Assembly (NCBI GenBank): GCA_016200005.1
Contig: JACQFP010000022.1
Coordinates: forward strand, 62,001 to 126,000
Source: Verrucomicrobiota bacterium
GTDB taxonomy: Bacteria; Verrucomicrobiota; Verrucomicrobiia; Limisphaerales; PALSA-1396
DNA length: 64,000 nucleotides
Direction: 5' to 3'
Numbering within the stretch: position 1 is the first letter of the stretch; the number at the start of each line of letters is the position of its first letter. The notes below the pieces were generated by a model. The model was not told the DNA's origin. It saw only the letters and a list, made by a program, of their open reading frames with translations, and did no database searches. A program made the position numbers and the translations under genes. This document shows, piece after piece, positions 33,622-60,424 of the stretch.

Positions 33622-34227
33622 CTATTTGGCGAACGCTGGGTGTTCCTTAAGGAAACGCGCGTATTCCTTTTTGATATCCTCGGCTTTGGGATCTAATTCC
33701 AGAGCCAGTTGATAGAGGCGATTGGCTTCGGGAAAATTCTTGCGGGCTTCTTCCATGAACTTCGCAAAGTTATTGGCATGAAAAGCGATATCCAAGCCAA
33801 GTTCAAATGCCCTGCGATAAAGCCGCTCCGCTTCGTCATAATTTTTGTGTTCTTTCCAATGGAAAAATGCAAAGTTGGCAGTGTTATTCGCGTGTTTGGG
33901 ATCTAGTTTCAACGCTTCACAACAAAGACGTGCCGCTTCGTCATTATTCTTGCGGACCAAATACATAAAAACTGCGAACCTACCAACTATGTTTGCGTCC
34001 TTCGGGTCGAGTTCCAATGCTCGGCGAAAAAGCTGCTCGGCTTCGTCATATTCCTTGCGGAAATTCTGCATGAAGGCCGCAAAGTTGCCGGTGTTCGTCG
34101 CGTGCTTCGGGTCGAGTTCCAATGCTCGGCGATAAAGCCGCTCGGCTTCGTCATAATCCTTGTGGATATTCTGCATGAAGGCCGCAAAGTTGCCGGTGTT
34201 CGTCGCGTGCCTCGGGTCGAGTTCCAA
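33622..34227 (-). CDS. Tetratricopeptide-repeat fragment, C-terminal half of the SIR2-TPR gene
   Basis: The 201-residue frame holds about six TPR-like units of about 35 residues, pattern 'GNFAAFMQN..KDYDEAERLYRRALELDPKHATN'. The first units are nearly identical at DNA level; later ones ('NNDEAARLCCEALKLDPKHA', 'FPEANRLYQLALELDPKAED') are diverged. An internal ATG at 34227 could serve as a start, but the frame is the natural continuation of the SIR2 frame once the 5-bp duplication is removed, so I read it as a broken part rather than an independent gene. Confidence 0.7.
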   Translation of the reverse strand: MELDPRHATNTGNFAAFMQNIHKDYDEAERLYRRALELDPKHATNTGNFAAFMQNFRKEYDEAEQLFRRALELDPKDANIVGRFAVFMYLVRKNNDEAARLCCEALKLDPKHANNTANFAFFHWKEHKNYDEAERLYRRAFELGLDIAFHANNFAKFMEEARKNFPEANRLYQLALELDPKAEDIKKEYARFLKEHPAFAK

Positions 34228-34370
34228 TGCTCGGCGAAAAAGCTGCTCAGCTTCGTCATAGTCCTTGCCGACATGCCAGATGAATGTCGCAAAGTTGCCT
34301 TGCCGGTGTTCGTCGCGTGCCTCGGGTCGAGTTCCAATGACTTGCGATAAAGCCGCTCGGCTTCATCATA
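33946..34370 (-). repeat. Tandem 105-bp TPR-coding repeats, one unit 110 bp
   Basis: Unit ends marked by CTTCGTCATA fall at 34041, 34146 and 34251, exactly 105 bases apart; the next (CTTCATCATA) is at 34361, 110 bases on. The units at 34051-34155 and 34156-34260 are identical at about nine of ten bases. Each unit encodes one 35-residue TPR. The extra five bases in the last unit are the TTGCC duplication. Confidence 0.9.
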
Positions 34371-35555
34371 GTCCTTGGTGGCACTCGCCAAGAAGTTCGC
34401 AACGTTGCCGGTCAAGTCGGCGCTTTTTGGAAAGTCTTTCAACCCATCAAGAAAGATGTTCTCCCGCTTCGCCGGATCTGTCTCGGCATCCGCCTTCAAT
34501 TGCCAAGCCCACCAACTGTTTTCTTTAGTCAACCGCTCGACGGCGGCCGCGGCTGCGCTGCGAACCTCTTTAAGTTCGGCTTCGGCAACTTTGTTTTTGC
34601 CCGGCTCTTTAAGTTTTTTGTTCAGTTCCTCGAATTGATTTTGAAATTCAGTGACACGTTTATCGTGCGTCTTTTGCAAATCCGGGATAGGAGATGGGAG
34701 TTGCAGCTTTTCCCAGAGTTGCAACATCAATTCATCGAAGCCAGAGATGGGGACGAGTCGGCCATGGTGGCGCTCAACGATTTCATGAATCTTGGGGTCG
34801 GGTTCATTCTCCGCTCGGTAACACCAGAAGATCCCGCCTTTGATCGGAGTAATCTTTTTGAAGAATCCCATAAGACTGCCATCATTGCCGCCATAGCCGA
34901 TGACAATCGGTGTGTTGTTGTCAAATATCACTTGCAATGCCGCTTCCCATTCGGGCGGGAGTTTTTCAATTTCTTCCGGCTCGCTCTTGGGTTTGAGCAG
35001 AAGATCGCGATGAATCTTGGCGATGACGGGACGTTTCAAGTTGGGCCGGATGAAGCCGGTGAGCGATTCATGGCCACACACAAGCGGGTAGTCGTGCGTG
35101 TAAGTGGAAATGGCGTTGGCGATGAGGTTGTCGAAATTAGTGGTGACGGCGACCTTGTGTTGCGAGTTGGCCATAATTTGCGCCAGCACGGAATAGCCGT
35201 AACTTGGGTCAGCTTGCTGCATCGCGTCCTCAAGAAAGGCGTAGCCCTGTTCCCTGAAATCACGAAACCGGCGCTGATAGATGAAAGGATAAAAATCGGC
35301 AGCCTTTTTGAAATCGAAACCCTTGATACCTAGGTTGGCGACGGTAGCCCATTTTTCGAGCGGCAGGTTGTTGAAGTCCTCCATCTCGTGCAGTTCCTTC
35401 AGCCATTGCATCGCCAGCGTACCGCCCGTGGGAATGCCGGATTGGAAGGAAGCGCCTGAACCCAATACCCAACAGAACGGGCGATCCGACATCTTTTTGT
35501 GCCGCGCCAGAAAATCGCTGAGGAAACCGGCAGTGGTAATTTTTTGAGCAGGCAT
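33987..35555 (-). CDS. SIR2-like N-terminal fragment (522-codon frame)
   Basis: Residues 1-260 show a SIR2-like Rossmann NAD-binding fold: 'GSGASFQSGIPTGG' at 32-45, 'TTNFDN' at 138-143, 'CGHES' at 160-164, 'KIHRD' at 180-184 (where sirtuins have a K-H-G type motif) and 'IGYGGND' at 219-225. Residues about 300-345 are a charged coiled coil, and the first TPR unit follows (about 375-415). After residue 417 the frame is shifted and translates out-of-frame TPR DNA into Arg/Thr/Ser-rich nonsense ('RTPATLRPSCRIS' repeated). If the gene is not corrected, this truncated protein with an abnormal tail would be made. The likely activity, NAD hydrolysis, is inferred from the family. Confidence 0.8.
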   Translation of the reverse strand: MPAQKITTAGFLSDFLARHKKMSDRPFCWVLGSGASFQSGIPTGGTLAMQWLKELHEMEDFNNLPLEKWATVANLGIKGFDFKKAADFYPFIYQRRFRDFREQGYAFLEDAMQQADPSYGYSVLAQIMANSQHKVAVTTNFDNLIANAISTYTHDYPLVCGHESLTGFIRPNLKRPVIAKIHRDLLLKPKSEPEEIEKLPPEWEAALQVIFDNNTPIVIGYGGNDGSLMGFFKKITPIKGGIFWCYRAENEPDPKIHEIVERHHGRLVPISGFDELMLQLWEKLQLPSPIPDLQKTHDKRVTEFQNQFEELNKKLKEPGKNKVAEAELKEVRSAAAAAVERLTKENSWWAWQLKADAETDPAKRENIFLDGLKDFPKSADLTGNVANFLASATKDYDEAERLYRKSLELDPRHATNTGKATLRHSSGMSARTMTKLSSFFAEHWNSTRGTRRTPATLRPSCRISTRIMTKPSGFIAEHWNSTRSTRRTPATLRPSCRISARNMTKPSSFFAEHWNSTRRTQT

Positions 35556-40688: not shown

Positions 40689-40827
40689 CAAGCTTCAGCT
40701 TGTTCGGGTTAAATTAATAGCGGCCGCGCTCGGTCTAACACCGAGCCGCAAGATTTGCGTGTGCGCCCGGAGAGAGCGATTGTCAAATTGAGTTTCCGGA
40801 GAGGCGATCACAAGCGGCGGAGGAAAA

Positions 40828-40870
40828 GCGCCGATAAATCGGACGCACTCCAAACGCTTCGTGAGTTTTT
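40828..40870. repeat. Dispersed repeat, copy A of 'GCGCCGATAAATCGG'
   Basis: The segment reads GCGCCGATAAATCGGACGC then ACTCCAAACGCTTCGTGAG and a T-run. A near-identical reverse-oriented copy lies at 60361-60402, differing at about two positions. It is non-coding here. Confidence 0.8.
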
Positions 40871-42588: not shown

Positions 42589-43890
42589 ATGAGTGAAGAA
42601 GCTTTCCAAGTGGGCGAAGGCGTGGTGGAGATAACACCGCCTTTGGGGATCGAGATGGCGGGCTTCCATAAACCGCCGGGCAAGGAGCGGCGCATCACCG
42701 GCATCCGGCAACCGACGTTTGCGCGGGCGTTGTTCATGCGCTTGGGCCGGACACAAGTGGTGATCGTTTCGGTGGAAGTGATCGGTGTTTCGCGCGCGTT
42801 CGCTCAACGCGCGCAAAAGCTTGTGGCCAGAAAGACGGGCGTTCCGTCGGCAAACATCCGGATTTGCGCCACGCATTCGCATTCGACACCGGCGTTGCTG
42901 TTCCTGCGGCAATGGGGTGCGGTGTCGGAAAAGTATCGTGACATTGTCGCCGGGAAAATTGTCGAGGCGGTCGAACTGGCGAAGAAAGACCTCGCGCCGG
43001 CGGACACGTATGTCGGCAGTGAGCGCGCCGTGGGTGGAAATTTCAATCGCACCGCCAAGACCTGGAAGACGGATGAGAAGTTCAATTCGGAATCGACCGA
43101 CGACGAGCGTTGGCTCGACACCACGCTGCACGCGCTCTATTTCCTCCGCGAAAAACCGAAGCGCAGTCTGGTCTGGTATCATTTTTCCGCGCACCCGGTT
43201 TGTTACACCGACGACAAGTCCGGCCCGGATTGGCCGGGCATCGTCTTCGAAAAGCTTAAGGCGCGGGATGAACTGGAGCCGGCCTACCTTCAGGGTCACG
43301 CCGGCGACGTGAATCCCGGGAATGGCAAGCCGTGGCTGGGCGATCCCGAGCAGGTTTCGGAGGCGGTTTATTATGCGCTCCATCACGCGATCAATCATTC
43401 CACGCTCGTCAGGTTCAACGACATTCGTTTGACGCACTCGGAAGTCAAAGTTCCGCTGGACACGGCGCAATTGAAGGAACAACTCGACTTGTATCGAAAG
43501 GACCCGTCCAAGTGCATTCAAGGCGAATGGGTCGATGGTGGCTTTGCCAAGGACTGGTTTGAGAGGGCGATGAAGTGGAGTCTGAAGAAGGGCAGCCTCA
43601 GCACGCCGATGAGCGCGTTGCGGTTGGGCGAAGTTGCACTGCTTTTTCATAGCGCGGAGCTTTACAGCTTTTACGGGTTGAAGATTCGGTTGGACTCGCC
43701 GTTTCCAGCAACGCTCGCGGTCGGATACACCGACGACCTCATCGGTTATCTGCCTGACCCCAATGCCTACAAAGAACGTGAGTATGCGGCGATCGTGGTG
43801 CCGAAGATTCTGGATCATCCACCATTCATGCCGACCGCAGCGCGTGAATTTACCGCCGCGGCGACTGCGTTGTTGAAGAGGCTGGCGTGA
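42589..43890 (+). CDS. Neutral/alkaline ceramidase-like hydrolase
   Basis: The 433-residue product resembles the N-terminal catalytic domain of neutral/alkaline non-lysosomal ceramidase: 'VVEITPPLGIEMAGF' at the start, then 'ICATHSHSTPALL' with candidate zinc ligands His96 and His98, and 'WYHFSAHPVCY' plus 'YLQGHAGDVNPGN' in the middle. Ceramidases split the amide bond of ceramides; PVC members are numerous and most are of unknown substrate. No signal peptide is visible. The C-terminal Ig-like domain of full ceramidases is missing. It diverges from the beta-helix gene across 148 bases. Confidence 0.82.
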   Translation: MSEEAFQVGEGVVEITPPLGIEMAGFHKPPGKERRITGIRQPTFARALFMRLGRTQVVIVSVEVIGVSRAFAQRAQKLVARKTGVPSANIRICATHSHSTPALLFLRQWGAVSEKYRDIVAGKIVEAVELAKKDLAPADTYVGSERAVGGNFNRTAKTWKTDEKFNSESTDDERWLDTTLHALYFLREKPKRSLVWYHFSAHPVCYTDDKSGPDWPGIVFEKLKARDELEPAYLQGHAGDVNPGNGKPWLGDPEQVSEAVYYALHHAINHSTLVRFNDIRLTHSEVKVPLDTAQLKEQLDLYRKDPSKCIQGEWVDGGFAKDWFERAMKWSLKKGSLSTPMSALRLGEVALLFHSAELYSFYGLKIRLDSPFPATLAVGYTDDLIGYLPDPNAYKEREYAAIVVPKILDHPPFMPTAAREFTAAATALLKRLA

Positions 43891-43902: not shown

Positions 43903-43963
43903 CCCCTCACCCGGCCAGAGGCCACCCTCTCCCCATCCGATGGGGAGAGGGCAGGGTGAGGGG
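43903..43963. repeat. Palindromic 'CCCCTCACCC...GGGTGAGGGG' repeat (intergenic copy)
   Basis: Outer arms CCCCTCACCC (43903-43912) and GGGTGAGGGG (43954-43963) enclose perfect 13-base inner arms CCCTCTCCCCATC (43925-43937) and GATGGGGAGAGGG (43939-43951). It begins 12 bases after a stop codon and is non-coding. Related copies occur inside coding sequence at 47435-47580 and 52382-52445. Confidence 0.9.
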
Positions 43964-44058: not shown

Positions 44059-47000
44059 ATGTTTCTGAAAAGCCACCGACCTCTGCTCTCTCTCCTCGGA
44101 TTGTTTGACGTGACGCTTGGGTTGCTGGCCGCAGTCAACTCCTTTGCTGACGCGAACCGGCTGACTTATCTCGACGAGAACGATCCGTTTTATGTCCGAC
44201 TGAATTTTCCCAAGTTAACCACGCCGCAATGGGTCGGCGAGCCGGGCGTTGAAGCGGTAGTCATCCTCGCGATCGACGACATGCGCGAGCCGCACAAATA
44301 TGAAGCGTTCCTGCGTCCGATTCTCGAACGGCTCAAACAGGTCGAGGGGCGCGCGCCGGTCAGCATCATGTGCAACGCGCTCGATCCGCAACACCCGCAG
44401 TTGCAGGCGTGGTTGAAGGAGGGTTTGTCGCTGGAGGTCCACACGCTCACGCATCCTTGTCCGTTGCTGGCGCGGAGCAACTTTACTGCTGCGGCGGACA
44501 CTTATCATGGCTGCGTCGATTTGCTGAATCGCATTCCCGACAATCAACCGGTCGCCTTTCGGATGCCATGCTGCGATTCGATGAACAGTCCCAGCCCGCG
44601 CTTTTACGCCGAGGTGTTTAATCGCACCAGTTCCGCAGGAAAGTTTCTGACCATCGATTCGTCCGTCATGAACATCACGACGCCAAAAGATAAGTCTTTG
44701 CCGCGCGTGTTGACGGTGGATGCCGATGGCCGGGAAAAGTTTCGCAAGTATCTGCCCGCCGTCACCAATGCCATCAGCAAAGTAAGCATGGGTTCATTTG
44801 TGACCACGATTGAAGACTATCCGTATCCTTACGTGATCGGAAAACTCTGCTGGGAATTTCCATGCGTGCTGCCAAGCGATTGGGAGGCGCAAAACATCCA
44901 CGGCACAAACAATCCCGTGACCGTCGCTGATTGGAAGGCGGCCCTCGATGTCACTGTGATGAAGCAGGGAGTGTTCACCATGATTTTCCATCCGCACGGC
45001 TGGATTCGGAACGATCAGATCGTGGAGTTGATTGAGTACGCTGTCACCAAATATGGCAAGCGTGTGAAGTTCCTGAATTTCCGCGAAGCGCAGGAGCGGT
45101 TGAACAAAAATCTACTGGCGGGACAACCGTTGCGCGCTGTCAACGGACAGGACAACGGTGTGCGGCTCGTTGATCTGAACAACGATGGCTTTCTGGACGT
45201 GGCCATCGGCAACGGGCTGATGAAGAAGACGCGCGTTTGGCAGCCGAAGGAAAGCCACTGGCTGGAAGCGAGTTTCCCGACGACGTTAGACGCTGGCGTG
45301 AAGTTCGGCGTTGTTCGCGCGGATTCGCACGCGACCATTCTGGTGAACAGCGCTGTTAAAGGCGCCTGGCATTTTGACGGGGAGAAATGGATCGAAGACA
45401 AGTCGCTGTTGACAGGGCTTGAGATTGGCGGGAAGCCGATCAACACGAGCGAGAATGGCCGTGATCGCGGCGTGCGGTTTCGGGATGTCGATAACGATGG
45501 GCGTTGTGAACTGATCGTCGGCAATGAATCCCAGAACGCGGTGTTCGCGTGGTCGCCGGAGGGAAGCAGATGGAAGCAACTTCCGTTTGCACTGCCGAAA
45601 GGCGTCGCGATCGTGGATGAGAATGGGCAGGATGCCGGATTGCGCTTTGTTGATTTCAACGAGGATGGTTTCGCTGATGTGATCTTCTCGAATGACAAAA
45701 TCTTCTCGCTTCACCTATTCGTGTCCGAAAACAAGCCGGGTCTGGCGTGGGAGGTGGGTTGGCCGCGCAAAGTCCGGGCGGGCAAACAAGGTAATCCCGA
45801 TGCCATTCCGATGATTGTCCGCGCCGGCACGAATCGGAACAACGGTGTCTGGTTTCACTCGCGTCATCTTTGGGTGCAGAATGAGGAGACCGACCGGTTG
45901 CCGGACAAGGTGGACCGTCGTTCGTATGAAACGCTGCTGGCTTTCGACGCGCCGCCGCCAAAAGCACCGGAAGAATCGCTGAAGGAAATCGAGGTGCCAC
46001 CGGGATTCAAGGTTGAACTGGTCGCGCACGAGCCGTTGGTTCGAGACCCGATTGCTTTTGAATGGGGCGCGGACGGAAAATTGTGGGTGGTTGAGATGGG
46101 TGATTATCCGGTCGGCGTGGACGGTCACGGCAAGTCCGGCGGCATCGTGCGGTTTCTGGAGGACACCGATGGCGACGGACGCTACGATAAATCGACGGTC
46201 TTTCTGGAAGGCCTCAACTTTCCCAACGGAGTCACACCGTGGCGCAAAGGCGTCATCGTCAGCGCCGCGCCGAGAATTATTTACGCCGAGGATACTAACG
46301 GCGACGGCAAGGCCGACGTGCGCGAAGTGTTGTTCACCGGGTTTCGCGAAGGTAATCAACAACATCGCGTCAACGGCTTCGATTACGGTCTGGACAACTG
46401 GATTTACGGCGCCAACGGCGACAGTGGCGGGGAGATTCATTCGGTGGCGACGGGCAAGAGCTTCAATCTGCGCGGGCGCGACTTTCGATTCAAACCGGAT
46501 GGTGGTTCGTTTGAGACGGTGGAAGGGCAGACGCAGTTTGGCCGTCACCGGGATGATTGGGGCAACTGGTTCGGCAACAACAATCCCACCTGGCTCTGGC
46601 ATTATTTTCTACCCGACCATTACCTGAGTCGCAATTCCCACCTTGCCGTCCGGTCCACCATGCACTATCTGGCGAATTATCCGCACAACACTGCGGCGTT
46701 CGCCATCAGTCGTCCAATGCAGCGCTTCAATTTTCCCGACATGGTCAACACTGTCACCTCGGCGAACAGTCCCACGCCCTATCGCGATGAATTGTTCGGG
46801 CCGGAGTTTGCGACGAGCGTTTTTGCCAGCGAACCGGCGAACAACTTGATACATCGCGAAGTGCTCGAACCGGACGGTGTCACTTTCAAAAGTCATCGCG
46901 CAAGAGGCGAAGAGGAGCGGGAGTTTCTGGCGTCGCGCGACAACTGGTTTCGTCCCACGATGCTCAAGACCGGACCGGACGGCGCGCTGTACATCGCCGA

Positions 47001-48957
47001 CATGTATCGGCTCGTCATCGAACATCCCGAATACGCGTTGCCGGGGATGGACAAACAGATCGATGTGCGCGCGGGTCACGACAAGGGTCGGATTTATCGC
47101 GTCTTTCCAGCAGATGCAAAGCTGCGCAAAATTCCCCGACTCGACCAACTCAAGCCTGCTGATTTAGTGACGGCGATGGACAGTCCCAACGGCTGGCAAC
47201 GTGACACCGCGCAACGTTTGCTGGTGCAGGCCGCCGACAAATCCGCCGTCAAACTGCTGCAACAATTGCTGGGCAGCAGCGCGCGACCCAAGACCCGGTT
47301 GCAGGCGCTCTGCACTTTGGACGGACTCGGCGCGGTGACACCGGAGATTCTGGTCAAAGGATTGAATGACTCGCACCCCGCGGTGAGGGAACACGCGGTG
47401 AGATTGAGCGAGCCGTTCATGAAGAAAAATCCATCCCTCACCCCGGCCCTCTCCCTTTCGGAAAGGGAGAGGGAGAATCGTGCAACGCGCTCAGCAGAAC
47501 CGAAAGGCGGCGAGTTGTTGCGTGAAGCGGAGAAAGGTCACCCTCGCCCCCGCCGAGGGGGAGAGGGACAGGGTGAGGGGTTTAATTCATTTTCTTCTCT
47601 TGCTGACGCCTTGCTGAACCTTGTCGATGATCCGGCCATCCGCGTCCGCTATCAACTCGCCTTCGGCCTCGGCGAATGGAACGACCCGCGCGCTGGTCGT
47701 GCTTTGGCCAGGCTCGCGATCAAAGATGCCGACAATTCCGAAATGCAAATTGCCGTGATGAGTTCCGCGGTTCCGCATGTCGGCAATATGATCGATGCGC
47801 TCCTGGCTGAAGCTGGCCAGCGAGCGACTCCTCTGGAGTTGCTCGACAAGCTATTCGGCCTCGCTGTTGTCGCAAGCGATGAAAAGTCGTTGGCAAAAAC
47901 TCTGGCGCGGGTAACCCAGCCAATCGATGGAAAACATCCCGCGTGGCAACTGGCGGCCTTGGCCGGCTGTCTGGACGCGTTCGAGCGCCGCGCCGGCTCA
48001 TTGAAGGCCTTTCAGTCCGGGAGCGGCGCGGAGTTGAGGCAAACCATCGACCGGTTCGACGTTGTTTTCAATGAAGCCCGCCGGATCATCGGCAATCCGA
48101 CCGCCAACGACACGGAATCTCGCCTCGCCATTCGCATTTTGGGTCGCGGCCTGAATCAGCAGGAACAGGACATTGATCGTCTCGTCACATTCTTGCAGCC
48201 GCAGGTCGAGGGCGATTTGCAATCCGCTGCCCTTGACTCATTGAAGCGCGCGAACAGCCCGCATGTGGCCGACGCATTGTTGAGCGGCTGGAAAGCGCAT
48301 AGCCCCGCTTTGCGGATTGAGGTGCTGAACATCTTGTTAAGCCGCCCCGAGAGGACTCGGAAATTACTGGAGGCGGTTGAGGAAAAACGAATCCTTCCGA
48401 GTGAGCTGGGCACCGTGCATCAGCAGAAGCTCCTGACCCATGCCAATGACGAGATTCGTAAACGGGCCGCGAAGTTATTATCCGCCACGAACACCGACCG
48501 GCAGAAAATCATCAAGGACTTCGCCGCGGTGAACGAGTTGAAGGGCGACGCGGGCAAGGGCGCCGATTTATTCCAAAAGAATTGCGCCGTCTGCCATCGC
48601 TTCAACGGTGTAGGTAACAGCATCGGGGCGGACCTGGGCAGCGTGGGGGACAAATCCGTTCCGGCGATGCTGGTCTCGATCCTCGATCCGAACCGCGCGG
48701 TGGAAGCGCGCTATCTCAGCTACACCGCGCTGACAAAAAGCGACCGCGAGATCAGCGGCGTCATCGCAGCCGAAACCCCGAACAGCATCACGTTGCGGAC
48801 GGCCGGTGGAACTGAAGAGGTTGTTTTGCGCAGCGACCTCAAAGAGTTGAGGGGTTCAAGTCTTTCGCTCATGCCCGAGGGATTCGAGAAGACCCTGACA
48901 CCACAGGCCCTCGCGGATTTGATTGCCTACATTGCGTCGGGTGAGCAGAAGCGATAG
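44059..48957 (+). CDS. Giant fusion: deacetylase-like, FG-GAP, membrane-bound dehydrogenase, HEAT, cytochrome c
   Basis: The 1632-residue exported protein has a signal peptide of about 30 residues. Residues 40-340 resemble a polysaccharide deacetylase (NodB) fold ('VVILAIDDMREP', 'LEVHTLTHPCPLL'). Residues 345-630 carry FG-GAP/VCBS-like repeats ('DNGVRLVDLNNDGFLDVAIG', 'GLRFVDFNEDGFADVIFS'). Residues 643-1030 are the PVC membrane-bound dehydrogenase beta-propeller ('VPPGFKVELVAHEPLVRDP', 'LDNWIYGANGDSGG'). Residues 1050-1470 are HEAT-like helices, interrupted at about 1126-1174 by repeat-derived sequence. The C-terminus is a PVC haem-binding domain with CAVCH at 1509-1513. The last three parts are a common PVC set; the first two in front are unusual. 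Substrate unknown, probably a periplasmic carbohydrate oxidation system. Confidence 0.88.
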   Translation: MFLKSHRPLLSLLGLFDVTLGLLAAVNSFADANRLTYLDENDPFYVRLNFPKLTTPQWVGEPGVEAVVILAIDDMREPHKYEAFLRPILERLKQVEGRAPVSIMCNALDPQHPQLQAWLKEGLSLEVHTLTHPCPLLARSNFTAAADTYHGCVDLLNRIPDNQPVAFRMPCCDSMNSPSPRFYAEVFNRTSSAGKFLTIDSSVMNITTPKDKSLPRVLTVDADGREKFRKYLPAVTNAISKVSMGSFVTTIEDYPYPYVIGKLCWEFPCVLPSDWEAQNIHGTNNPVTVADWKAALDVTVMKQGVFTMIFHPHGWIRNDQIVELIEYAVTKYGKRVKFLNFREAQERLNKNLLAGQPLRAVNGQDNGVRLVDLNNDGFLDVAIGNGLMKKTRVWQPKESHWLEASFPTTLDAGVKFGVVRADSHATILVNSAVKGAWHFDGEKWIEDKSLLTGLEIGGKPINTSENGRDRGVRFRDVDNDGRCELIVGNESQNAVFAWSPEGSRWKQLPFALPKGVAIVDENGQDAGLRFVDFNEDGFADVIFSNDKIFSLHLFVSENKPGLAWEVGWPRKVRAGKQGNPDAIPMIVRAGTNRNNGVWFHSRHLWVQNEETDRLPDKVDRRSYETLLAFDAPPPKAPEESLKEIEVPPGFKVELVAHEPLVRDPIAFEWGADGKLWVVEMGDYPVGVDGHGKSGGIVRFLEDTDGDGRYDKSTVFLEGLNFPNGVTPWRKGVIVSAAPRIIYAEDTNGDGKADVREVLFTGFREGNQQHRVNGFDYGLDNWIYGANGDSGGEIHSVATGKSFNLRGRDFRFKPDGGSFETVEGQTQFGRHRDDWGNWFGNNNPTWLWHYFLPDHYLSRNSHLAVRSTMHYLANYPHNTAAFAISRPMQRFNFPDMVNTVTSANSPTPYRDELFGPEFATSVFASEPANNLIHREVLEPDGVTFKSHRARGEEEREFLASRDNWFRPTMLKTGPDGALYIADMYRLVIEHPEYALPGMDKQIDVRAGHDKGRIYRVFPADAKLRKIPRLDQLKPADLVTAMDSPNGWQRDTAQRLLVQAADKSAVKLLQQLLGSSARPKTRLQALCTLDGLGAVTPEILVKGLNDSHPAVREHAVRLSEPFMKKNPSLTPALSLSERERENRATRSAEPKGGELLREAEKGHPRPRRGGEGQGEGFNSFSSLADALLNLVDDPAIRVRYQLAFGLGEWNDPRAGRALARLAIKDADNSEMQIAVMSSAVPHVGNMIDALLAEAGQRATPLELLDKLFGLAVVASDEKSLAKTLARVTQPIDGKHPAWQLAALAGCLDAFERRAGSLKAFQSGSGAELRQTIDRFDVVFNEARRIIGNPTANDTESRLAIRILGRGLNQQEQDIDRLVTFLQPQVEGDLQSAALDSLKRANSPHVADALLSGWKAHSPALRIEVLNILLSRPERTRKLLEAVEEKRILPSELGTVHQQKLLTHANDEIRKRAAKLLSATNTDRQKIIKDFAAVNELKGDAGKGADLFQKNCAVCHRFNGVGNSIGADLGSVGDKSVPAMLVSILDPNRAVEARYLSYTALTKSDREISGVIAAETPNSITLRTAGGTEEVVLRSDLKELRGSSLSLMPEGFEKTLTPQALADLIAYIASGEQKR
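47435..47580. repeat. Composite palindromic repeat inside the fusion gene
   Basis: CCCTCACCCC, then inner arms CCCTCTCCCTTTC / GAAAGGGAGAGGG (47447-47459 and 47461-47473), a spacer, then a second palindromic part (47537-47580) ending GGGTGAGGGG. It is read in frame and gives an Arg/Glu/Gly-rich stretch ('SLSERERENRATRSAEPKGG', 'RPRRGGEGQGEG') between HEAT repeats. Confidence 0.88.
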
Positions 48958-49001
48958 ATTCGTGCCGGAAACATTTCAGTCGGTTGTTGACCAATTCAAT
49001 C

Positions 49002-49904
49002 ATGAGAACCGCAAGGCCGCCCAAAACCCGGAAAACAGTTGCTGCCACGAAGCCGATGGATTCTGCCGGCGCGCGGTTTCGCGCGGCGATGGAAAACGAG
49101 CGTCCGTTGCAGATTGTTGGCGCGATCAATGCCTACACCGCCCTCCTCGCCGAGAAGGCCGGCTTCAAGGCGTTGTATCTTTCCGGCGCGGGCGTGGCCA
49201 ATGCCAGTTACGGCGTGCCGGACATTGGCCTGACCACGCTCGACGACGTGCTCATCGAAGTGCGTCGCATCACCAGTGCGACGAGACTGCCCTTGCTCGT
49301 GGACGCGGATACCGGCTGGGAAAACCTGCGTCGCACCGTCCGTGAAATGATTCGCGAGGGCGCGGCGGTAATTCACATCGAAGACCAGGTGGAGGCCAAG
49401 CGGTGTGGCCACTTGTCCGGCAAACAACTCGTGTCGCCGAAGAAAATGGTTGCGCGCATCAAGTCCGCTGTGTCGGGGAGGACTGATCCCGCCTTCGTCA
49501 TCATGGCGCGGACCGACGCGGCGAGCGTCGAAAGCTTGGAAGCCGCCATCGCGCGCGCGCGGCTCTATCGCGATGCGGGCGCGGATATGATTTTTGCCGA
49601 GGCGTTGAGGACGTTGGATCAATACCGGCTGTTCGCGCGCGCGGTTGAAATTCCCGTGCTCGCGAACGTGACTGAATTCGGCAGGACGCCGTTGTTCACA
49701 GTCCAGGAACTGCGTTCTGCTGGTGTGGCGCTGGCGCTGTATCCCCTCTCGGCTTTCCGCGCGATGAGTGCCGCAGCATTGAAGGTGTTTCAGACCATTC
49801 GCGCCGAGGGCACGCAACGGAAAGTTGTTGGCCAGATGCAGTCGCGCGCTGAGCTGTATGAGTTTTTGGGTTATGACGTGTTTAACAAAGGAATGAGAGC
49901 ATGA
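49002..49904 (+). CDS. prpB: 2-methylisocitrate lyase
   Basis: PrpB splits 2-methylisocitrate into pyruvate and succinate, the last step of the methylcitrate cycle for propionyl-CoA. From the ATG at 49002 it has 300 residues, the family's normal length. The isocitrate lyase/PEP mutase motifs are clear: '[15 protein letters not shown]' (62-76), 'LLVDADTGW' with metal-binding Asp101/Asp103, and the active-site loop KRCGHLSGK at 133-141 with the catalytic cysteine. A TTG upstream could add six residues. It overlaps prpC by 4 bases (ATGA). 2-methylisocitrate specificity rather than isocitrate is inferred from size and neighbours. Confidence 0.93.
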
Positions 49905-51022
49905 GCATGGAGAAGAAAACTGGCGGACTGGCCGGCATCGTTGCCGGGGAAACCGCGATCAGCACCGTAGGCAAAGAAGGCGTTGGCCTCACGTATCGCG
50001 GCTATGCGATTGAGGATCTGGCGGAGCGGGCGACGTTCGAGGAAGTCGCCTTCCTGTTGCTATACGACCATCTGCCGAGTCGCAATGAACTGGCCGACTA
50101 CCGAAAGAAGCTCATCTCGCTTCGCGGATTACCGAAGTCGCTGAAGACGGTTTTGGAGCAATTACCTGCCGCGACGCACCCGATGGATGTGCTTCGCACT
50201 GGTTGTTCCGCGCTCGGCTGTCTTGAACCGGAGGGCGACGAGCGCGATCAAATACAAGTCGCCAATCGTCTGCTGGCAGCCTTTCCCTCGATGCTGCTCT
50301 ACTGGTACCAGTTCCACAAACAGGATGAGCGAATCGAAACTGGGACCACCGATCCGTCCTTGGCTGCGCATTTTCTCCATCTACTCCTCGGCAAACCGGC
50401 GGATGAATTACGGATTCGAGCCATGGATGCCTCGCTGATTCTTTACGCGGAACACGAATTCAACGCCTCGACTTTCGCGACGCGCATCACGACCTCCACG
50501 CTGGCGGATTTTTATTCAGCAATCACGAGCGGCATCGGCACCTTGCGCGGCAACCTGCACGGTGGCGCCAACGAAGCGGCGATGGAATTAATCGAGCGTT
50601 TCAAGACGCCCGACGAGGCGGAGGCTGGATTGATGCAAATGTTGCAACGCAAGGAACTCATCATGGGCTTTGGGCATCGCGTTTACAAGACTTCTGATCC
50701 GCGTTCACCGGTGATCAAAGGCTGGGCGAAAAAACTGGCCGCAGCGTGCGGCGACGAACAGATTTATTGCATCTCGGAACGTATTGAAGCGGTGATGTGG
50801 CGCGAGAAGAAGCTCTTTCCCAATCTGGATTTTTACAGCGCGGCGGCTTATCATTTTTGTGGCATTCCGACCGCGATGTTCACGCCGCTGTTTGTCATCG
50901 CGCGCACGTCGGGCTGGTCGGCGCACATCCTGGAGCAGCGCGGGAACAATCGGTTGATACGTCCGACGGCGGAATACATCGGGCCGGCGCCTCGTGCATT
51001 TGTGCCGATTGAACAAAGGTGA
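49901..51022 (+). CDS. prpC: 2-methylcitrate synthase / citrate synthase
   Basis: PrpC condenses propionyl-CoA with oxaloacetate. The 373-residue product has the short form typical of 2-methylcitrate synthases. Catalytic residues are His220 in '[12 protein letters not shown]', His259 in '[10 protein letters not shown]' and Asp310 in '[10 protein letters not shown]', the usual citrate-synthase triad. '[13 protein letters not shown]' and '[13 protein letters not shown]' at the N-terminus are standard. It overlaps prpB upstream and ends in a TGA that overlaps the possible GTG start of the pseudopilin gene. Citrate synthase activity cannot be excluded, but the operon favours 2-methylcitrate. Confidence 0.93.
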
Positions 51023-51024
51023 GG

Positions 51025-51981
51025 ATGATGCGGAAGGTCATCGCGAACGGTTGTTGGAGTCCAAGCTTTAGCTTGTCCGGCGGCACGCTCAAGCGTGAAC
51101 TCCAACCCAAGTCCGACGCGAGATCCAAACCTGATAGCGGTTTTACGCTGATCGAACTCCTGGTCGTCATCGCCATCATCGGCATTCTCGCCAGCTTGTT
51201 GTTGCCGGTTTTGGGCAAGGCCAAACTCAAGGCGCAGGGACTGCAATGCATGTCCAACCACCGCCAGTTGACGCTCGCGTGGAAAATGTACAGCGATGAC
51301 AACCGCGATGTGTTGCTCTATGCCAGCGGCATCTGGCCGTACACGTCTCACGACCCGGATGTCTGGATCAGCGGCTGGATGGATTTCGAACCGGGCAACC
51401 GCTCCAATTGGGACGCCGACGTGGACATCAAGCGCAGTCCCCTCTGGCCTTACTGTGGTCAGTCAACCGGGATCTGGAAATGCCCAGCGGACAAATCGGC
51501 AGTGGCTGTGGACGGCAAGTTGCTCCCGCGCGTGCGCAGCATGTCGATGAACATCTGGGTCGGCGGCTTTCGCGGGATGGATTACGGTCTGTCCGACAGC
51601 GCCGATCCGTTCGCGACAGGCGGCGGCCGCTGGCGGGTTTATTTGAAAATGACCGACATGATTGATCCAGGACCGACGCGCACTTTTGTTTTGTTGGACA
51701 TGCGCGAAGACAGCATTGATGTCGGCAATTTCGCCCCGGACATGCGCGGCTGGCCGGATAATCCGGCGCAAACCGGTTTTTATGATCTGCCCGGCAGCTA
51801 CCACCATCGCGCAGGCGGTTTTTCATTTGCCGATGGTCATGCCGAAATCAAACGATGGGTGGATGACCGGACCATGCCGCCACTCGTGAAAAGCGGATTC
51901 GTTGATGACCATCTGTTGACGCCGTTCAACAAGGATGTCGTCTGGTTGCAGGAACGGTCCACGCGCAAAATCAACCCATGA
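51025..51981 (+). CDS. Type II secretion/type IV pilin-like pseudopilin (H-X9-DG type)
   Basis: The prepilin motif '[20 protein letters not shown]' (about 39-58) marks a peptidase site after Gly with a hydrophobic helix. The C-terminal half carries the H-X9-DG motif '[12 protein letters not shown]', typical of the many pseudopilins of Verrucomicrobia and Planctomycetes, and '[11 protein letters not shown]' at the end, also seen in the pseudopilin at 58391. The leader before the cleavage site is about 38-40 residues, several times the usual length, because a dispersed repeat (51053-51106) is read in frame there. Start may be GTG 51019 or ATG 51025/51028. The gene sits between prpC and prpD with overlaps on both sides, an odd place for a pilin. 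Confidence 0.9.
51053..51106. repeat. 'GTTGGAGT...TGAACTCCAAC' repeat in the pseudopilin leader
   Basis: Arms GTTGGAGTCCA (51053-51063) and TGAACTCCAAC (51096-51106) enclose AGCTTTAGCTTGTCC and CACGCTCAAGCG. The element is translated as part of the leader ('[17 protein letters not shown]'). A close copy in prpD is at 52980-53037, where the same end is read as 'DTLKRELQ'. Confidence 0.88.
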
Positions 51982-53567
51982 ACCATTCCACTGGCGGAAA
52001 ATCTTCGCGCCCGGCACCCGACCGATTGTTGGTGGAAATCGCGGACTACGTCTGCGATTTCAAAATCACCAGCGACGAAGCGTTCAACACCGCACGCTAT
52101 TGCCTGCTCGACACGCTGGGGTGCGGCCTGCTCGCGCTGAAATATCCAGCTTGCACAAAACTGCTCGGGCCGGTTGTGCTAGGAACAATCGTGCCCAACG
52201 GCGCGCGCGTGCCGGGGACGAACTACGTGCTCGATCCCGTCACCGCCGCGTTCAACATCGGTACCCTCATCCGCTGGCTGGATTTCAACGATACCTGGCT
52301 CGCGGCGGAGTGGGGGCACCCCTCGGACAATCTCGGCGCGATCCTCGCCGTGGCGGATTTTGTGAATCAGAGCGCAAAGATTCCCCGCACCCGTCGTGAC
52401 GGACACCCTCTCCCCATCCGATGGGGAGAGGGACGGGGTGAGGGGCGCTCCGGTTACACCGTCCGCGACATTTTGACCGCGATGATCAAGGCGCACGAAA
52501 TCCAAGGCATCCTCGCATTGGAAAACAGCTTCAACCGCGTCGGCCTCGACCATGTCCTGCTCGTACGCATCGCTTCGACAGCCGTGGCCACACACTTGCT
52601 CGGCGGGACGCGCGAGCAGATCATCAACGCCGTCTCCAACGCCTGGCTCGATGGCGGCGCGCTGCGCACCTATCGCCACGCGCCCAACACTGGCTCGCGC
52701 AAATCCTGGGCCGCCGGCGACGCCACCGCGCGCGCCGTTCAACATGCCCTCATGGCAATCAAAGGCGAGATGGGCTACCCGTCCGCTCTTTCCGCGCCCA
52801 AGTGGGGTTTCAGCGACGTGCTCTTTCGCGGCCAGCCCGTCAAACTCGCACGCCCGTTCGACTCGTATGTGATGGAAAATGTATTGTTCAAGATTTCCTT
52901 CCCCGCCGAGTTCCACGCGCAAACTGCCGTCGAAGCCGCGATCAAGTTGCACGAGAAGTATTTTGCAGAGCGCGCTTCTGTTGGAGTTCAGCCTTTAGGT
53001 TGCCCACCCTCCGACACGCTAAAGCGTGAACTCCAACGCGCCCCGCTGAGAACCCTCGACCAGATCGAGCGCGTGGAGATTCACACGCACGAATCCGCCC
53101 TCCGCATCATTGACAAGACCGGGCCGCTGCACAACCCGGCCGACCGCGACCATTGTCTGCAATACATGACCGCGATCAGCCTCATCTTCGGCGCGCTCAC
53201 CGCCGATCATTACGAGGACGCGACCGCCGCCGATCCGCGCATTGACGCCCTACGCCCGAAGATGGTCGTGCGCGAAGACCCGCGCTACACCCGCGAATAT
53301 CTCGAACCGGACAAGCGCGCCATCGCCAACGCCGTGCAAATCTTCTTCCGCGACGGCAGCGCGAGTGAGAAGGTGGAAGTGGAATATCCCGTGGGCCACC
53401 GCCGCCGCCGCGCCGAAGGCATTCCGCTGCTCGTGAAAAAATTCCAAGCCAACGCGGAAACATGTTTCCCGCCTGAGCGCGTCAAACAAATCGTTGCGCT
53501 GTTTGAAGATGTGAAAGGGCTGGAACTGATGGCGGTGAATGAGTTCGCCGAGAACTTCATTCCGTAG
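51978..53567 (+). CDS. prpD: 2-methylcitrate dehydratase (MmgE/PrpD family) with two repeat-derived insertions
   Basis: PrpD dehydrates 2-methylcitrate to 2-methyl-cis-aconitate. Nearly the whole family pattern is visible: '[20 protein letters not shown]', '[20 protein letters not shown]', '[20 protein letters not shown]', '[20 protein letters not shown]', '[20 protein letters not shown]' and '[12 protein letters not shown]'. At 529 residues it is about 45 longer than E. coli PrpD (483). The excess falls in two places that coincide with dispersed repeats: residues about 136-156 ('[14 protein letters not shown]') and about 335-354 ('[19 protein letters not shown]'). Both lie in loops and keep the frame. 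It overlaps the pseudopilin gene by 4 bases and the convergent toxin gene by 11. Confidence 0.94.
52382..52445. repeat. Palindromic 'CCCTCTCCCCATC' repeat inside prpD
   Basis: Inner arms CCCTCTCCCCATC (52406-52418) and GATGGGGAGAGGG (52420-52432) are identical to those of the intergenic copy at 43925-43951. The right outer arm GGGGTGAGGGG is retained; the left one is diverged. It is read in frame within the dehydratase. Confidence 0.9.
52980..53037. repeat. 'GTTGGAGTTCA...TGAACTCCAAC' repeat inside prpD
   Basis: Perfect 11-base inverted arms (52980-52990 and 53027-53037) enclose GCCTTTAGGTTG and ACACGCTAAAGCG. It is read in frame as '[19 protein letters not shown]'. The same arms occur at 40653-40688 and, with one arm slightly diverged, at 51053-51106. 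Confidence 0.92.
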
Positions 53568-60360: not shown

Positions 60361-60402
60361 AAAACTCGCGAAGCGTTTGGAGTGCGCCCGATTTATCGGC
60401 GC
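60361..60402. repeat. Dispersed repeat, copy B of 'GCGCCGATAAATCGG' (reverse)
   Basis: The reverse complement reads AGCGCCGATAAATCGGGCGC then ACTCCAAACGCTTCGCGAG and TTTT, nearly the same as 40828-40870. It lies between the convergent SDR and permease genes (95 bases). Confidence 0.8.
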
Positions 60403-60424
60403 TGTTTCATTGGTCGCTCCAAGC

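Follow-up and report, generated by a model that had tools for sequence, protein, structure and literature searches.

A gene joining a NodB/CE4-type deacetylase-like domain and an FG-GAP propeller to a DUF7133-HEAT-cytochrome c protein in Verrucomicrobiota and Planctomycetota

CE4/NodB-like deacetylases (HP0310, 3rxz and PdaC, with the allantoinase PuuE alongside them) have in common with the protein family analyzed here their fold, an Asp-Asp pair, an HxxxH motif, an RxP motif and a late His. The C-terminal 1000 residues of the same protein belong, by score, to the PVC-type heme-binding CxxCH proteins (TIGR02604 plus TIGR02603, DUF7133), and the fold closest to that of DUF7133 is found in the PQQ sugar dehydrogenases (GSDH, AA12), one His of which can be aligned. 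A PVC cytochrome domain combined with carbohydrate-binding modules, and with a suspected carbohydrate role, is likewise a feature of the PSCyt/PSD proteins described by He et al. 2017 (PMC5615132), who call the functions of PSCyt proteins wholly unknown; the main text of PMC5615132 uses neither the word "deacetylase" nor the word "dehydrogenase".

Here, we describe a gene from a 64,000-nucleotide stretch of DNA of a Verrucomicrobiota bacterium (contig JACQFP010000022.1, positions 62,001 to 126,000; hereafter, the window). The gene ties a DUF7133 group to a recognizable deacetylase, which provides a first guess at a substrate and a direct test.

Gene architecture and the deacetylase-like half

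The frame contains no internal stop among its 1632 codons (Table 1) and encodes, from the N to the C terminus, a signal-like segment, a NodB/CE4-type domain, an FG-GAP propeller, DUF7133, HEAT repeats and a cytochrome c domain. In Pfam searches with the window protein, FG-GAP, DUF7133, HEAT and cytochrome c scored above their cut-offs while Polysacc_deac_1 stayed below; four of the five parts were thus plain, and the deacetylase part needed further work. Two NCBIfam models, TIGR02604 (279.8 bits; cut-off 122.2) and TIGR02603 (109 bits; cut-off 68.15), were both exceeded, placing the protein among the PVC heme-binding CxxCH proteins. The five-part fusion proposed in the initial annotation was therefore borne out by open reading frame analysis and by Pfam/NCBIfam domain searches, one frame carrying all of the parts.

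A hydrophobic 11-mer (mean KD 1.96) lies within residues 1–33, and a comparable N-terminal segment is present at 70 of the 72 loci with enough upstream sequence, the segments being called by a rule of thumb and not by a trained predictor. Judged by this feature, the window protein is probably exported, either to the periplasm or to the outer surface.

The match of Polysacc_deac_1 (PF01522) to the window protein spans residues 65–171 (E value 0.025, 15.0 bits; gathering cut-off 23.1), and the isolated domain reached 18.1 bits, again below the cut-off. Among 51 domain sequences, comprising the window and 50 of the 80 related loci introduced below, 43 matched the family at E ≤ 0.01 (best, 3.2e-08), and a profile of the domain set retrieved PdaC (2.4e-06) and PgdA (0.001) from the PDB sequences. 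A fold model of the deacetylase and FG-GAP parts (610 residues, pLDDT 94.1, pTM 0.93) displayed the deformed β/α barrel of the NodB type. The best PDB match for the deacetylase model was 3rxz from M. smegmatis (Z 20.3, 244 aligned residues, 3.3 Å), followed by HP0310 (3qbu; Z 19.8, 226 residues, 2.8 Å) and PuuE (3cl6; Z 19.2, 246 residues, 3.3 Å).

Conservation was assessed in 75 rows (the window and 74 loci, the six cut loci being left out), which were also used for the domain tree. The residues D73/D74, H128/H132, R168/P170 and H311, which we take to represent CE4 motifs 1, 2, 3 and 5, respectively, provide a metal-type Asp-His-His set with a catalytic Asp (motifs 1 and 2), an RxP element and a late His, with H311 placed by alignment rather than by coordinates. 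R168, P170, C171, C172, D173 and S174 are each present in 75/75 rows and M169 in 72/75; candidates for the motif 4 Asp are D200 (69/75 rows) and D274, which is followed by W275 (75/75 rows). The motif residues are alike in the 48 fused and the 27 stand-alone rows. The sequences of this set share a Cys-Cys pair close behind the motif-3-like Arg; a vicinal disulfide between the invariant C171 and C172 might be part of the active site.

Together, the family and PDB profile matches, the fold match at Z 20 and the near-invariant Asp and His positions confirm the NodB-like domain and the catalytic-type residues that the initial annotation had asked for, and they rule out a chance deacetylase match. 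The N-terminal domain is thus predicted, on the basis of its sequence and modeled fold, to be a metal-dependent CE4-type deacylase. Since PuuE, which ranks high among the fold matches, is an allantoinase, the target may also be an amide different from N-acetyl.

The downstream propeller scores above the cut-offs of Pfam models of FG-GAP repeats (FG-GAP_3, E value 2e-11, 44.8 bits, cut-off 26.9; FG-GAP, 27.9 bits, cut-off 22.1). Its Foldseek matches include the GlcNAc-binding lectins 4tqj (E value 2.5e-03) and 2bwm (1.1e-02), a weak similarity between a model and known structures that would fit an amino-sugar ligand. In four related loci (L015, L017, L026 and L034), the FG-GAP region contains an insert of about 280 residues, a portion of which is similar to the C-terminal region of the ceramidase-like neighbor of L026 (44–46% over about 198 residues).

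Table 1. Positions of the gene, its parts, key residues and its upstream neighbor within the window
Feature	Position	Strand	Details
Ceramidase_alk family gene	42589..43890	+	Directly upstream, same strand; PF04734 E value 3.2e-16
Whole gene	44059..48957	+	Single frame, ATG at 44059 to stop at 48957; 1632 aa
Signal-peptide-like N terminus	44059..44148	+	Residues 1–30; hydrophobic 11-mer
NodB/CE4-type deacetylase-like domain	44149..45147	+	Residues 31–363; profile, fold, conservation
D73 D74 (presumed CE4 motif 1 type)	44275..44280	+	Asp in 74/75 rows, gap in the remaining row
H128-xxx-H132 (presumed CE4 motif 2 type)	44440..44454	+	Both His in 75/75 rows
R168-M-P-C-C-D-S174 (presumed motif 3 type, invariant Cys-Cys)	44560..44580	+	Residue counts in the text
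H311 (presumed motif 5 type)	44989..44991	+	75/75 rows
FG-GAP beta-propeller and linker	45148..45966	+	Residues 364–636; Pfam and fold model
DUF7133/TIGR02604 propeller	45967..47112	+	Residues 637–1018; Pfam E value 1.5e-158
H769	46363..46365	+	44/44 rows; placed by hhalign on the invariant His of GSDH (16/16 rows)
HEAT-repeat region	47161..48498	+	Residues 1035–1480; HEAT_2 E value 2.7e-13; right limit approximate
In-frame insert, inverted pair of REP-like units	47435..47579	+	About residues 1126–1174 (~49 residues), in the HEAT part
Cytochrome c domain	48526..48939	+	C1509-x-x-C1512-H1513; Cytochrom_C E value 2.3e-06

Distribution of the fusion and its junction

A contig scan with residues 1–364, which was a pattern search and not a census, found 89 relatives, of which 80, with 50–91% identity over the domain, were kept; a second alignment (A2) comprised the window and 60 loci. 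By phylum label, 37 of the 80 loci belong to Verrucomicrobiota, 40 to Planctomycetota and two to Pseudomonadota, and one carries no phylum label. Both halves of the gene share one frame at 47 loci, the deacetylase and FG-GAP parts are followed by a stop at 27, and six loci are cut or frameshifted; all five parts lie in a single open reading frame at 37 of the 80. Sought in other Verrucomicrobia, the fusion recurs at 33 Verrucomicrobiota loci (none alone, four cut), while the Planctomycetota loci comprise 12 fused, 27 stand-alone and one cut case. One of the Pseudomonadota loci is fused and the other cut, and the locus without a phylum label is fused. On a quick tree of the domain, the state changes between fused and alone seven times, compared to a mean of 22 changes in shuffles.

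The stand-alone proteins end just past a QNEDT-type segment that coincides with the start of the DUF7133 linker in the fused ones, as seen in nine stand-alone and five fused loci, with no match to the search word in one of the latter. This shared end point would be expected if the window frame gave rise to two proteins, the second from an internal start near 45960. We nevertheless regard such an arrangement as very improbable, because the frame has no in-frame stop and the junction is unbroken in 47 of 80 loci, 12 of them from Planctomycetota. A two-gene artefact, which the initial annotation had named as a way in which its proposal could fail, is ruled out by the same uninterrupted frame in the window and in loci of two phyla.

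The combination had also been called unusual, a view that did not survive: the domain occurs in 89 of the 293 genomes of the window's order (41 of the 154 good-quality genomes), and the fusion recurs in Planctomycetota. A reading of the gene as a rare oddity was rejected on the count within the order, though in a phylum-wide sample the domain was found in one of 387 genomes, the window's own, with a single protein and a profile alike and at E ≤ 0.001 as well as at E ≤ 1e-50; just one other of the 21 genomes listed for that sample belongs to the same order. Numerous bacteria of soil and water, from both phyla, share the fusion. Named strains, Aquisphaera insulae with the fused form and Tautonia sociabilis with an unlinked pair, make the system testable outside metagenomes.

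The DUF7133 propeller and the C-terminal half

The DUF7133 part was modeled as a propeller (pLDDT 90.5), for which the first 16 PDB rows were PQQ sugar dehydrogenases and AA12 enzymes, from Z 25.6 (3a9g, 282 aligned residues, 3.1 Å) down to Z 22.4. Other propellers followed from Z 21.7 downward, among them the non-enzymatic HHIP (Z 21.5), so that the fold falls with the GSDH group. In an hhalign comparison with 16 GSDH-family sequences from related genomes (96.6%, E value 5e-10 for the single comparison), H769, invariant in the 44 DUF7133 rows (the window and 43 loci), was placed on the invariant, presumably catalytic His of GSDH, and the RN pair of GSDH was aligned to R-D. It is on this similarity in fold and profile that we propose an oxidase activity for DUF7133.

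Searches for direct sequence relatives and for a cofactor pathway gave a different picture. None of the 44 DUF7133 sequences matched the GSDH family (PF07995) at E ≤ 1, and a search of PDB sequences with DUF7133 returned nothing but ferritin chance matches. Neither the window's genome (96% complete) nor the only sampled genome of its genus yielded pqqC, and no pqqE match over the cut-off was present in the former; across the order, pqqC was matched in five of 58 sampled genomes, in three of them above the family cut-off. These results, together with the high rank reached by HHIP, would agree with the DUF7133 propeller being a binding or scaffolding module rather than an oxidase, with the heme taking electrons from another protein or sensing the redox state. 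Set against them are the position of the PQQ sugar dehydrogenases ahead of all other propellers and the alignment of H769 with the invariant His of GSDH, and we judge a non-oxidase role unlikely. E. coli takes up PQQ from outside, and external uptake would reconcile the lack of a pqqC match with PQQ use.

The HEAT part of the window protein is interrupted in frame by the inverted pair of REP-like units, which is absent from eight aligned relatives and from L003, a locus 91% identical in the deacetylase domain. The palindromic core of this repeat occurs 112 times in the genome, as opposed to zero times for a reversed control pattern; further REP-like copies in the window are intergenic (43920–43956) or lie inside an MmgE/PrpD open frame (copy at 52401–52444, frame at 51978–53567). 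In the cytochrome c domain, C1509, C1512, H1513 and M1605 are kept in 37/37 rows (the window and 36 loci), and M1605 is a candidate distal (axial) heme ligand. Among the 36 fused loci whose C terminus is complete, 16 (L013, L058 and L064, for example) have an extension of about 150 residues behind the cytochrome domain; that of L058 is CBM_6-like (E value 3.7e-04, below the Pfam cut-off).

Partners of DUF7133, proposed function and comparison with known systems

A quick tree of 88 DUF7133 rows united 45 fused and three unlinked rows in one group (support 87, not starred); L113, L123 and L134–L142 were left out as repeats of other rows or as second halves, as were L143–L146 and L151 as repeat rows of the 44-row set, while L147–L150 were included. 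For ten of the 27 stand-alone loci, the genome was searched for DUF7133 (E ≤ 1e-60) and then for the deacetylase domain. In three of these genomes (G683, G685 and G686), a DUF7133 protein that lacks the deacetylase but belongs to the fused clade is encoded on a different contig from the stand-alone deacetylase, and G684 carries one stand-alone and one fused copy. In G678–G682, no DUF7133 match scored close to the fused group (the best reached 2.5e-103, and G679 had none), and the best match in G687, three of whose seven matches are in the tree, falls outside the fused clade in the ceramidase-fused group described below. That one DUF7133 group is paired with the deacetylase, fused or unlinked, suggests a specific partnership, whereas the six of ten searched genomes in which no fused-clade DUF7133 was found indicate that this partner is dispensable for the deacetylase half.

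The sister group in the DUF7133 tree consists of four proteins (L176, L177, L180 and L181) with Ceramidase_alk-like and Laminin_G_3 domains in front, Ceramidase_alk scoring above the cut-off in three of the four; support is 100 for this group and 87 for its union with the deacetylase group. The window's own genome contains 20 genes with strong DUF7133 profile matches and one with a weak match. Two of its DUF7133 proteins bear a ThuA domain (L179:2214-7637) or a weak esterase-like domain (L178:746-6625) in front, suggesting that the hydrolase is exchangeable. From the recurring hydrolase-DUF7133 fusions, the window gene appears as one case of a modular design of hydrolase, binding module, DUF7133, HEAT and cytochrome.

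The same data bear on whether the two halves act in sequence. Two independent enzymes could reside on one chain, attacking different bonds or molecules, with the fusion merely co-localizing both on the same glycan. The 27 stand-alone loci, the genomes without a fused-clade DUF7133 (some of which have weaker matches outside the tree) and the ThuA and esterase-like paralogues speak for independence; the union of fused and unlinked rows in a single deacetylase-tied group speaks against it. We consider independent action a possible but less favored explanation.

A ceramidase-like gene also lies directly upstream of the window gene (Table 1), and a Ceramidase_alk-like gene is found beside or near the gene in six of the 74 classified loci besides the window (L003, L026, L042, L060, L067 and L074). 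At L060, a planctomycete stand-alone locus, the upstream gene has the same orientation and is 54% identical over 431 residues; at L003, a contig-end fragment is 85% identical to the window's gene. The Pfam cut-off was exceeded in L060, L026, L074 and L067 and missed in L042 (23.8 versus 32.1 bits). Given the 11 Ceramidase_alk places in the window's own genome, such neighbors are by eye commoner than expected, with the qualifications that L003 is closely related to the window and that L067 and L074 are close relatives. Ceramidase neighbors and the ceramidase-fused sister group hint that two hydrolase families serve one pathway, the six loci being a minority of the 74. A conserved operon was rejected, as clustering of the neighbors of the 80 loci gave none common to most.

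Elsewhere in the window, PEP mutase/isocitrate lyase-like, citrate synthase and MmgE/PrpD genes form a methylcitrate-like set in a row (48984–53567), among which sits a prepilin-like gene. At 33770–34412, a unit of about 105 bases is repeated six times in tandem, and a 46-base inverted repeat (93% complementary) is found at 40824–40869 and 60361–60406, 19.5 kb apart. No tRNA gene was detected in a scan of the window.

Starting from the single frame, the folds, the conserved motif residues, the recurrence of the fusion and the unlinked partner of the same clade in some genomes, we propose that the gene product is an exported two-step enzyme, by which a carbohydrate is deacylated and then oxidized, with electrons passing to the heme; we assign this reading a probability of slightly less than one half. 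The FG-GAP propeller would bind a glycan, from which the metal-dependent CE4-type domain would cleave acetyl or another small acyl group, the most probable site being an N-acetyl amino sugar. Oxidation by the DUF7133 propeller, of this sugar or of one set free from it, would come next, and electrons would travel to the C-terminal heme c and onward to the respiratory chain, the HEAT repeats serving as a spacer or scaffold. More tentatively, the protein may be thought of as a respiratory deacylase, i.e., a CE4-type enzyme wired via a sugar-dehydrogenase-like propeller to a heme, so that an N-acetyl sugar would be deacetylated and oxidized on one chain. It might then exemplify a broader PVC design, with one and the same DUF7133-HEAT-cytochrome module preceded by hydrolases that can replace each other (CE4, ceramidase-like, ThuA, esterase).

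The individual parts are known, and PVC cytochromes with carbohydrate-binding modules are noted by He et al. 2017 (PMC5615132). A literature search of openly licensed papers found no report of a deacetylase joined to a DUF7133 cytochrome protein, and no PSCyt/PSD Pfam domain is among the nine Pfam matches of the window protein at E ≤ 1, setting it apart from those proteins. Unlike the PQQ sugar dehydrogenases, the DUF7133 proteins analyzed here show no direct sequence match to that family, and the window protein is encoded in a genome in which pqqC was not found. Compared to the CE4/NodB-like deacetylases, the window family has its own RMPCCDS signature with the invariant Cys-Cys, the window protein scores below the Pfam cut-off, and the domain is followed by FG-GAP and, at all 33 Verrucomicrobiota loci that could be classified, also by the cytochrome protein. 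Compared to the PVC-type CxxCH proteins, finally, the window protein carries a deacetylase and an FG-GAP propeller in front and falls into a tree group of its own.
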